Part shown: piece after piece, positions 40,398-43,537 of the stretch | Position numbering within the stretch: position 1 is the first letter of the stretch | How the letters are laid out: each line of letters opens with the position of its first letter | Source: Prolixibacteraceae bacterium | Lineage (GTDB): Bacteria > Bacteroidota > Bacteroidia > Bacteroidales > Prolixibacteraceae | Reading direction: 5' to 3' | Length of the DNA stretch: 64,000 bases | Assembly (NCBI GenBank): GCA_009773765.1 | Contig: WTWZ01000005.1 | Coordinates: 62,001-126,000 of the forward strand | Made by a program: the position numbers and the translations under genes | Notes under the pieces: generated by a model | What the model was told of the DNA's origin: nothing | The model's input: only the letters and a program-made list of their open reading frames with translations | Databases searched by the model: none

Positions 40398-41273
40398 ATG
40401 ATAAAATCTATGACTGGCTTTGGTAAAGCCGAATTCGAGGTAAACAACAAAAAATTCACCATCGAAATAAAATCGCTAAACAGTAAGCAACTTGATATAA
40501 ATACGCGAATCCCGGCAATTTACCGCGAAAAAGACATCGAAATCAGAAAAGAACTTTCGGATAAACTCGAACGTGGAAAAATTGATTTTAACATTTATGT
40601 TGAAAGCCTGGGCGACGAGTCGAACTCAAAAATTAACGAACCCATTCTGCGAAGTTATTTCAAACAACTTGGCAAAATTAGCGCAGAATTTAACCTGGCC
40701 ACCGACCATTCAACCCTTCAGGCTGCCCTTCGTTTGCCCGATGTGGTAAAAACCGAATACCAGACACTTGACGAGGAGGAGTGGGAAATTATTCTTAAAA
40801 ATATCAGAAAGGCAATTGCCGATATCGACAAATTCAGGGTCCGGGAAGGCGACTCATTAAAAATTGATATCATAAAAAGTATTGATCTTATCCAATCGCT
40901 TATGTCTCAAATTGAACCATTTGAAGGCCCGCGAATTGAAGCATTGAGGGCCCGTTTAACCGAAAATCTCGACAAGTTAAGTTTAAATGGGAATGTTGAC
41001 AAAAACCGCTTTGAGCAGGAATTGATTTTTTATCTTGAAAAGCTCGACATTAACGAGGAAAAAGTAAGGCTTGCAAACCATTGCGAATACTTTACTGATA
41101 CCGTTGCCGAGCCTGTACCAACCGGTAAGAAGCTGGCGTTTATTTCGCAGGAAATTGGCCGTGAAGTAAACACCATCGGTTCGAAAGCCAACAATACTGA
41201 AATCCAGCGGATTGTTGTTCAAATGAAAGACTACCTTGAACGGGTGAAGGAACAGTTGCTGAATGTTTTATGA
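40398..41273 (+). CDS. YicC family endoribonuclease
   Basis: 'MIKSMTGFGKAE', 'GREVNTIGSKANNTEIQRIVVQMKDYLERVKEQLLNV'. Confidence 0.95.
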   Translation: MIKSMTGFGKAEFEVNNKKFTIEIKSLNSKQLDINTRIPAIYREKDIEIRKELSDKLERGKIDFNIYVESLGDESNSKINEPILRSYFKQLGKISAEFNLATDHSTLQAALRLPDVVKTEYQTLDEEEWEIILKNIRKAIADIDKFRVREGDSLKIDIIKSIDLIQSLMSQIEPFEGPRIEALRARLTENLDKLSLNGNVDKNRFEQELIFYLEKLDINEEKVRLANHCEYFTDTVAEPVPTGKKLAFISQEIGREVNTIGSKANNTEIQRIVVQMKDYLERVKEQLLNVL

Positions 41274-41836
41274 AAGGCAAACTCATCATATTTTCAGCGC
41301 CGTCGGGGGCAGGGAAAACAACGATTGTACGGCATCTGCTCAAAAGAAACCTCAAACTCGAATTTTCTGTTTCGGCCACCAGCCGTACTCCGCGGCCAAA
41401 CGAAACCAATGGAAAAGACTACTATTTTCTTTCGGAAGAAGAATTTAAGAAGAAAATAACGAACAGTGAATTTCTGGAATGGGAAGAGGTGTACAACGGA
41501 ATTTTTTACGGATCGTTAAAAAGCGAAGTGGAACGAATTCGCAACAACGGGAAAAATGTAATTTTTGATGTTGATGTTGTTGGCGGATTGGATATTAAAA
41601 AGATTTATGGTGATGAAGCTCTTGCCATTTTTGTGCAACCACCATCAATTGAAGAGTTGCGTAAAAGACTGATAAGCCGTTCAACCGAAACCGAAGAAAA
41701 AATACAGGTGCGCATTGCCAAAGCCGAACACGAACTTAGGTTTGCCAGTCAGTTTGATAAACTTGTAACCAACAACGATTTGGCGCAGGCGTGCAAGGAA
41801 GCTGAGGTAGTAATCCGGCAGTTTCTGGGAGTTTGA
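41270..41836 (+). CDS. gmk: Guanylate kinase
   Basis: 'IFSAPSGAGKTTIVRHLL', 'SATSRTPRPNETNGKDYYFLSEEEF'. Confidence 0.96.
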   Translation: MKGKLIIFSAPSGAGKTTIVRHLLKRNLKLEFSVSATSRTPRPNETNGKDYYFLSEEEFKKKITNSEFLEWEEVYNGIFYGSLKSEVERIRNNGKNVIFDVDVVGGLDIKKIYGDEALAIFVQPPSIEELRKRLISRSTETEEKIQVRIAKAEHELRFASQFDKLVTNNDLAQACKEAEVVIRQFLGV

Positions 41837-41858
41837 CTTTCCGGGAGTTTGACTTTCC
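41827..41858 (+). repeat. 2 x 16-bp tandem repeat (gggagtttgactttcc) spanning the gmk stop codon
   Basis: Exact direct repeat 41827-41842 and 41843-41858. Confidence 0.85.
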
Positions 41859-41893
41859 AAAGTCAAACTTTTCTGGGAGTTGGAAACTCCCAG
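41846..41893. repeat. Two consecutive perfect hairpins downstream of gmk
   Basis: agtttgacttt-cc-aaagtcaaact (41846-41869) and ctgggagtt-gga-aactcccag (41873-41893). Confidence 0.8.
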
Positions 41894-41926
41894 TCCCGGA
41901 TTTATTTTTAATTTGGAATTTAAAAG

Positions 41927-42049
41927 ATGAGCAACCTTATTTCAGATATTCTCTCGCCAAAACCCGTCCGCTTAAAAGTCGGGCTTTATTTTGGTTCCTA
42001 TAACCCAATCCACATCGGGGTTAGGGGTCAAACAGATGAAAATTATTGA
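41927..42049 (+). pseudogene. nadD: Truncated 5' copy of nadD (first 31 codons, then unrelated sequence to stop)
   Basis: 41927-42019 matches 42914-43006 at 89/93 positions; homology stops inside the GSYNPIHIGH motif. Confidence 0.92.
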
Positions 42050-42913
42050 ATTTCATACTTTTCGGAGTAGGCTCAATAATCAATTTTCAATTTCTGTATG
42101 AAGTTAAAATATCTGATTTATTTCTAATTTCAAGCCTTTATTACTAAATCACAAAATCATGGAAGAAAAATTCAGAAACTACCTAACAAAATTGGGACTT
42201 AAGGGTGCCCCAAATAATTATCCTCAGGCAATAAATTTAATATCTCAGCATTATTCAAGCCGCACCGGAAAATACATCGATATTTATTCAATTAAAGAAT
42301 TAGATAAACTAAAAGTAGTAGTGCAAGATTATGAACAGTCTGGAAGATTTGCGGATTACGGATATGAACATCATGGCAGATATAGAGCAGCAATTAAAAA
42401 ATATTTGGAGTTTTTCGAGAAGATGAATCATGCTAATACCAACTCAGAACATGTTATAGAATTTGAAGAAATAAACGAAGATTCGATATCAGAATCAGAA
42501 TCACTATTTACTTATGAAAGAGATCTGCAGAAATCGCTTTACAGTGATGTTGAAAGATTATTTTCGGAATATGTTATTTTTGGAAATAACAAAGAAGGGA
42601 TTGAATATTCAATAAATGGTAAAAGAATTGATTTATTATTAGTTAATAAGATAACTAAAGATCTTCTTGCTATTGAATTGAAATCCGGAATTGCCGATTT
42701 TAAAGTTTTCGGTCAGATTTCAATGTATCTAGGTCTTCTAAAAAACAAATTCCCCGAAAGAAAAGCAAAAGGACTAATTATCGCAGGTTCTATTGATGAG
42801 TCATTATTATACGCTTGTTCAACAACCAATCTAATTTCATTAAAAACATATAAGATGAATTTGCAACTTGATGAGGTTTTGTAAGTTGTTTTGGATAAAT
42901 TATGTATTTTGAA
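42020..42913. mobile_element. Putative ~0.9 kb insertion carrying a solitary nuclease gene, bracketed by 93-bp direct repeats of nadD
   Basis: Flanking long direct repeat; no transposase; AT-rich interior. Confidence 0.6.
42159..42884 (+). CDS. NucS-like PD-(D/E)XK nuclease with N-terminal restriction-enzyme-type helical domain
   Basis: C-terminal 'GKRIDLLLVNKITKDLLAIELKSGIADFKVFGQISMYLGLL' (D...ExK); N-term 'INLISQHYSSRTGKYIDIYSIKELDKL...GYEHHGRYRAAIKKYLEFFE'. Confidence 0.7.
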   Translation: MEEKFRNYLTKLGLKGAPNNYPQAINLISQHYSSRTGKYIDIYSIKELDKLKVVVQDYEQSGRFADYGYEHHGRYRAAIKKYLEFFEKMNHANTNSEHVIEFEEINEDSISESESLFTYERDLQKSLYSDVERLFSEYVIFGNNKEGIEYSINGKRIDLLLVNKITKDLLAIELKSGIADFKVFGQISMYLGLLKNKFPERKAKGLIIAGSIDESLLYACSTTNLISLKTYKMNLQLDEVL

Positions 42914-43537
42914 ATGAGCAACCTGATTTCAGATATTCTTTCGCCAAAACCCGTCCGCTTAAAAGTCGGGCTTTATTTTGGTTCCTATAATCCAATTCAC
43001 ATCGGGCATTTGGCCATTGCCAATTTTATTGTGGAATATACTGATATCAACCAGCTTTGGTTTGTTGTTTCGCCACAAAACCCGCACAAGAAAAAGGAAA
43101 ACCTTCTTGCCGGTTACCACAGGCTGGAATTGGCGGAGCGTGCGGTTGAAAGTGATGTCCGGTTCCGGGTTTCCAACATCGAATTCCATTTGCCCAAACC
43201 AAGTTATACAGTTGATACACTGGCCCGTTTAAACGAACGTTTTCCACATTACAGTTTTGCAATTTTAATGGGGTCTGACAATCTGGAAAACTTTCATAAA
43301 TGGAAGAATTACGAAGTCATTCTGGAAAATTACAGTATAATTGTTTATCCCCGTCCTGGTTTCGACAAATCGAAAGTTCAATACCATAAAAATATTACGG
43401 TTGCTGAAGGAGCCCCGTTAATGGAAATCTCTTCCACATTTATCAGAAATGCCGTAAAAGAGGGAAAAGATGTTCGTCATTTCATGCCGCCAATGGCATG
43501 GAAATATATGGATGAGATGAACTTTTACAGGAAATAG
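42914..43537 (+). CDS. nadD: Nicotinate-nucleotide adenylyltransferase
   Basis: 'GLYFGSYNPIHIGHLAIANF', 'SPQNPHKKKENLL', 'ISSTFIRNAVKEGKDVRHFMP'; ATG at 42914 matches the truncated copy's ATG. Confidence 0.94.
   Translation: MSNLISDILSPKPVRLKVGLYFGSYNPIHIGHLAIANFIVEYTDINQLWFVVSPQNPHKKKENLLAGYHRLELAERAVESDVRFRVSNIEFHLPKPSYTVDTLARLNERFPHYSFAILMGSDNLENFHKWKNYEVILENYSIIVYPRPGFDKSKVQYHKNITVAEGAPLMEISSTFIRNAVKEGKDVRHFMPPMAWKYMDEMNFYRK

Follow-up and report, generated by a model that had tools for sequence, protein, structure and literature searches.

Within the 64,000-nucleotide stretch of Prolixibacteraceae DNA analysed here (hereafter the window), the start of nadD occurs twice downstream of gmk, once as a short remnant and once as part of an intact gene, with a low-GC segment carrying a single nuclease gene between the two copies. 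The features of the locus, in window coordinates, are as follows:

41270..41836, forward strand: gmk (guanylate kinase), the upstream neighbour, an ORF whose synteny holds in 28 genomes and which adjoins nadD in insert-free relatives.
41927..42019, forward strand: remnant nadD 5' end, codons 1-31, one copy of the repeat, joined to the native gmk-side flank and taken as the displaced native start.
42020..42049, forward strand: foreign tail of the remnant ORF, nine codons and then the TGA at 42047-42049, with the left junction at 42019/42020 (ATCGGG/GTTAGGGG).
42020..42913, no strand assigned: inserted segment of 894 bp, recognised by sequence and composition (GC 29.4%).
42159..42884, forward strand: ORF for a predicted 241-aa PD-(D/E)XK nuclease, supported by domain and structure matches, the single clear ORF of the insert.
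42914..43006, forward strand: functional nadD 5' copy, 89/93 identical to the remnant with four synonymous differences, taken from the substitution pattern as donor-derived.
42914..43537, forward strand: intact nadD (ORF; CTP_transf_like domain match, E 2e-22), with a further in-frame upstream ATG at 42902.

Structurally, the two 93-nt copies lie 987 bp apart from start to start, begin exactly at the nadD start codon, and differ only at third codon positions. The nadD pair is the sole direct repeat of at least 40 bp with comparable spacing in the window, and is thus not a product of chance. The insert is markedly poorer in GC than the window as a whole (39.6%), with only 0.9% of 894-bp segments equally low, and just 29 bp separate the nuclease stop codon from nadD. 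At 42019/42020 the insert abuts the remnant with unrelated sequence, and at its other end it meets the homologous repeat, which is the anatomy of a one-sided integration. The original prediction had described this repeat, an insert of ~894 bp with one nuclease-like ORF and an intact nadD downstream, all of which we re-found exactly; it had also reported no transposase, integrase or methylase, and we saw none of these in 42020-42913, nor an attC site or terminal inverted repeat. With a lone nuclease ORF and no methylase, the cargo is not a restriction-modification unit. Between gmk and the remnant, a REP-like palindromic repeat (GGGAGTTTGACTTTCC...AGTCAAACT, GGGAGTTGGAAACTCCC) was noted at 41822-41900; palindromes of this kind also lie on both sides of a 196-aa ORF resembling a REP-associated transposase elsewhere in the genome (C33:77376-78183), and a single-domain GIY-YIG nuclease gene of 107 aa lies between REP-like palindromes (CATCCTGAGCGTAGTCGAAGGATG) at C59:9475-10083.

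Comparison with relatives revealed the empty site. At each of the 28 loci of the genus where both genes are visible, gmk adjoins nadD (with a gap of about 54-323 bp in 27), and neither a second nadD fragment nor a nuclease lies between them in any of these 28 genomes; nor do other members of the genus carry the nuclease gene. The insertion is therefore lineage-specific, which bears out the claim of the original prediction that a segment had entered here, next to what relatives keep as one nadD start. The closest nadD among the compared genomes is 76% identical at the amino-acid level, so the comparison set contains no conspecific. In one of the 28 (G004, locus L028) the gap is occupied by a different single ORF of 237 aa, with no repeat, indicating that insertions are tolerated there; this ORF looks like a membrane protein and has no confident Pfam match.

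Functionally, the inserted protein has an N-terminal helical domain (about residues 1-94) and a NucS/YhcG-type nuclease domain (about 112-236), in which D158, E173, K175 and Q186 are invariant. Its C-terminal half exceeds the Pfam cut-offs for YhcG_C (33.1 bits; cut-off 32.5) and NucS_C (26.1; cut-off 24), and, judged by sequence, this is a PD-(D/E)XK domain of the YhcG_C/NucS_C type with the predicted catalytic residues present. A search of PDB sequences with the protein gave no match, and its AlphaFold model (pLDDT 80) matches EndoMS/NucS in Foldseek (5gke, 2vld). We rejected an assignment to NucS/EndoMS itself, as the full-length equivalog model NF003270 scored 19.3 bits against a cut-off of 216. 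A PADLOC model match to PDC-S02 (E 2.9e-17, residues 79-238, half of the profile) makes the protein a candidate member of that candidate defence family.

Twelve relatives of the nuclease were found across GTDB, mostly full-length proteins with 38-60% identity, in hosts that include Methylococcales, Marinobacter, Desulfobacteraceae, Vibrio, Oscillospiraceae, Endoriftia and Methylobacter; viral and phage collections gave no close relatives, and plasmid matches reached ~30% identity over the nuclease domain only. Three relatives, those of Marinobacter, Methylobacter and a single Desulfobacteraceae MAG, have an attC-like site starting a few bases from the gene's end (searched with a relaxed pattern, since strict RYYYAAC misses real sites), and 6 of the 11 relative-bearing genomes searched encode an integron integrase. 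The original prediction had proposed looking for the protein at other loci with flanking host-gene duplications; none was seen among the relatives, two of whose contigs (L052, L054) are too short to judge. The same was true of the nuclease paralogs of the window genome (L002-L005), of phylum-level matches (L036-L043), and of the six carriers among 235 Vibrio genomes. Repeats in one Vibrio genome (G848) were rejected as gene-end duplications because they are terminator-like hairpins. One relative (L047) has partial repeats ~1.7 kb apart around two ORFs, where no gene end was recognised. In a Methylococcales MAG (L044, 10001-10729) a relative stands alone between genes that by eye are zwf- and edd-like, with neither duplication nor attC. 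With attC cassettes in three relatives and a nadD-type duplication in none, the family would seem to move by several routes, and the duplication appears to be a property of the window genome rather than of the nuclease.

A scan for direct repeats around inserts, covering 2.21 of the 4.27 Mb of the genome, found at least seven further ends of intact genes doubled around small inserts:

ileS 5' end and promoter-side DNA (156 bp, 85% identity; locus L098, C87:83014-84254): an ORF with a weak Pfam match to a PIN domain, plus two small ORFs.
Response regulator 3' end (173 bp, 92%): RelBE.
Nucleotidyltransferase (NTase) 5' end (268 bp, 90%): DUF3791/DUF3990 (PADLOC PDC-M13).
T9SS-type gene 3' end (151 + 124 bp, 91-98%): MNT-HEPN (PDC-S09).
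SDR 3' end (62 bp up to the contig end, 85%): RHH-MazF.
sdhB 3' end and terminator (90 bp, 87%): AAA/DUF4143 ATPase (PDC-S01).
crp-like 5' end (105 bp, 86%): lipoprotein.

The six sites other than ileS lie at C87:93911-94827, C13:284-1996, C44:2486-4000, C59:19073-19957, C15:23374-24852 and C21:114624-116192. Seven of the eight cargoes, the nuclease included, are toxin-antitoxin (TA) or candidate defence genes, the exception being the lipoprotein. Gene-end duplication is not universal among TA loci: the eight ParE-family loci of the genome include one clear duplication and one weak 52-bp repeat. An empty site was verified for nadD only, because gene order on the outer side of the ileS, response-regulator and NTase sites is not conserved in relatives. 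Three further TA modules between repeats were not counted, namely those on C12, C27 (HigBA) and C56 (MNT-HEPN), the doubled piece being a whole gene, part of a module or a piece with no identified intact partner; at C12:48007-50793, two copies of a whole DUF2007 gene (80%) enclose a 207-aa ORF along with a PemK/MazF-type toxin that has a small ORF upstream. Also dropped as unrelated were tandem paralogs (C18, C33, C57, C60), an Rhs locus (C38), REP-flanked genes (C33, C59), a tandem response-regulator/TPR unit in G020, and a CRISPR array (C2:1-5192; 37-nt repeat GTTTCAATCCTTGTTTTTTTGGAAGTGGGGTTTTAAG) with a putative cas4-type ORF nearby.

The recurrence of the same anatomy around unrelated TA modules in one genome, together with nuclease relatives elsewhere that have no gene-end duplication, speaks against the 'minimal mobile nuclease unit' of the original prediction, and the insertion was probably not driven by the nuclease itself.

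Evolutionarily, the way in which the copies differ is informative as to their origin. Pooled over the eight repeat pairs, 62 differences are synonymous and 27 nonsynonymous; by pair, the ratios are 4:0 for nadD, 13:2 for the response regulator, 18:6 for the NTase, 8:1 for the SDR gene, 8:7 for ileS, 4:2 for the crp-like gene, 6:8 for the T9SS-type gene and 1:1 for sdhB. The expected synonymous share is ~27% for neutral change and at most ~40% for a remnant decaying neutrally beside a constrained gene, and the pooled counts depart from this 40% post-insertion-decay model with P 1.5e-8, a value that assumes independent sites and refers to pairs pooled after the pattern was seen. Individually, the four differences of the nadD pair give weak evidence against the same 40% model (P 0.026, again assuming independent sites), and the T9SS-type and sdhB pairs have no significant synonymous excess. 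The copies thus look like alleles that diverged under purifying selection, and not like recent duplicates, which counts against the original suggestion that the unit duplicates its target and regenerates the gene start as it integrates. The NTase repeat begins 4 bp before its ATG and the nadD repeat at the ATG itself; limits at the start of coding constraint are as expected of homologues from diverged genomes, rather than of an arbitrary stretch of copied target. From this allele-like divergence we infer that the nuclease and the second nadD start most likely entered together, out of a diverged relative. The relatives searched include no donor in which the nuclease precedes nadD, so a donor origin rests on the substitution pattern.

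A related species (G022, locus L207) has its own duplication of the ileS 5' end, in which the cargo is a zeta-type toxin in place of the PIN-domain module of the window genome, and the two genomes have in common a 53-aa ORF and the junction at ileS. Over an 80-bp core, the G022 remnant is 97% identical to the native ileS of a sister genome (G035), versus 92% to the working copy of G022 itself, and in its final bases it has changes in common with the ileS remnant of the window genome. This sequence pattern agrees with a left part that is native and a right part carried in on the element. The common junction could go back to a single early insertion that G035 has since lost, rather than to repeated transfer.

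We posit, as a reading that has somewhat the better of the argument, that the 93-bp repeat is not the target-site duplication of a transposition-like event, and that DNA of a diverged relative, carrying the cargo along with its own gene end, integrated through one homologous crossover and left the native end as the remnant. Under this scheme, a fragment with the nuclease directly in front of nadD would enter the cell, a single RecA-type crossover would take place between its nadD start (at least 93 bp of homology) and the nadD of the recipient, and its other end would be joined illegitimately, either because the molecule was trimmed and circularised before a Campbell-type integration, or because linear DNA underwent homology-facilitated illegitimate recombination (HFIR). 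The product would be the native nadD start on its gmk-side flank, truncated to a remnant ending at 42019, then the nuclease, and then a working nadD with the donor start; the cargo may have been kept by selection or by hitch-hiking, and the same route may have brought TA and candidate defence modules to the other core-gene ends of the genome. Such products are known from experiment: when Escherichia coli received linearised DNA that was homologous at one end only, duplications of the lacZ end were present in 56 of 60 selected integrants, those of 14 sequenced spanning 109-950 bp, and they were explained by trimming, recircularisation and one RecA-dependent crossover, with true HFIR as the remainder (PMC3240628). 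HFIR has also been proposed for the T6SS effector-immunity arrays of Vibrio cholerae (PMC5361080).

Of the other readings, true insertion with long target duplication, in which the unit or host repair would have copied 93 bp of nadD at insertion and the copies would have diverged later, deserves the most careful weighing, since the anatomy is identical to that of Helicobacter pylori restriction-modification insertions (PMC1643837, PMC3874152) and the nadD copies are 96% identical. We nonetheless consider it unlikely: the pooled synonymous excess departs from post-insertion decay, the nadD repeat has its limit exactly at the start codon, the ileS copies are just 85% identical, and the ileS remnant of G022 resembles the allele of a sister species. 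An older tandem duplication of the nadD start, into which the nuclease later entered by any route, would be compatible with two diverged copies, but it would need the same coincidence at eight loci, and no relative has a cargo-free nadD duplication, which makes it improbable. Slightly more doubtful again is a homing-type event, in which the nuclease would cut nadD, be copied in and restore the gene start; despite its intact PD-(D/E)XK motif and the scatter of close relatives over distant phyla, the same anatomy surrounds RelBE, MazEF, PIN, MNT-HEPN and DUF3990 modules that include no such nuclease, other copies of the family have no gene-end duplications, and no other genus member carries the gene.

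Site-specific recombination in trans, with an integron integrase or another tyrosine recombinase placing the cassette, draws on the attC-like sites directly 3' of the relatives in Marinobacter, the Desulfobacteraceae MAG and Methylobacter, on the integron integrases of the relative-bearing genomes, and on the start of the insert, GTTAGGGG, which loosely resembles GTTRRRY. The insert, though, has no attC at or near its 3' end, the window genome has no integron integrase over the cut-off, and cassette insertion would not double 93 bp of nadD, so that we regard this route as very improbable. An assembly or strain-mixing artefact has, in our estimate, a slimmer chance still: the structure is known from the assembly alone, which is fragmented into 118 contigs, but the copies differ, both ORFs are intact, and further cases lie on different contigs, with a similar one in a second genome (G022).

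The wider question is how small TA genes and solitary nucleases can move when they bring neither transposase nor integrase, and the eight gene-end duplications, with their substitution pattern, separate 'copied at insertion' from 'brought from a relative' and make the question testable. Returning to single-crossover integration from a relative, we tentatively suggest, as an idea that may well prove wrong, that this lineage acquires, genome-wide, TA and nuclease modules that have no recombinase of their own, the core-gene end of the donor serving as an anchor that restores the interrupted gene, and the repeats keeping the module excisable or swappable (as with the zeta-type and PIN cargoes at ileS), so that core-gene ends would act as integrase-free docking sites for addiction modules.

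Among known systems, the inserted protein resembles PDC-S02 and NucS_C/YhcG_C nucleases in its C-terminal nuclease domain, its PDC-S02 match and the match of its AlphaFold model to EndoMS/NucS, but differs from them in its N-terminal helical domain and in standing without partner genes. With respect to integron gene cassettes, full-length relatives elsewhere adjoin attC-like sites, whereas the nadD site has neither attC nor an integron integrase. HFIR and trimmed-circle crossover share with the nadD locus one homologous anchor, one illegitimate junction and displaced native pieces beside a new module; here, though, the process would be read from the anatomy of a natural genome, with several cases in that genome and mainly TA or defence cargo. 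Insertion with long target duplication was reportedly described by Nobusato et al. in 2000 for restriction-modification genes. The anatomy that goes by this term, to which the original prediction had referred, has ~100-bp target-derived direct repeats and a single-copy empty site; both are what we found, as are the small defence or selfish cargo, the intact target and the lack of a transposase. As a pattern, this is documented for restriction-modification genes (PMC1643837, PMC3874152), whereas the cargo at nadD is a solitary nuclease, the other sites hold mostly TA genes and no methylase is present, and the allele-like divergence of the copies in the window genome argues for cargo and second copy having arrived together. 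Insertion with long target duplication might itself be re-read as the plain integration, by a single crossover, of cargo attached to the end of a core gene.
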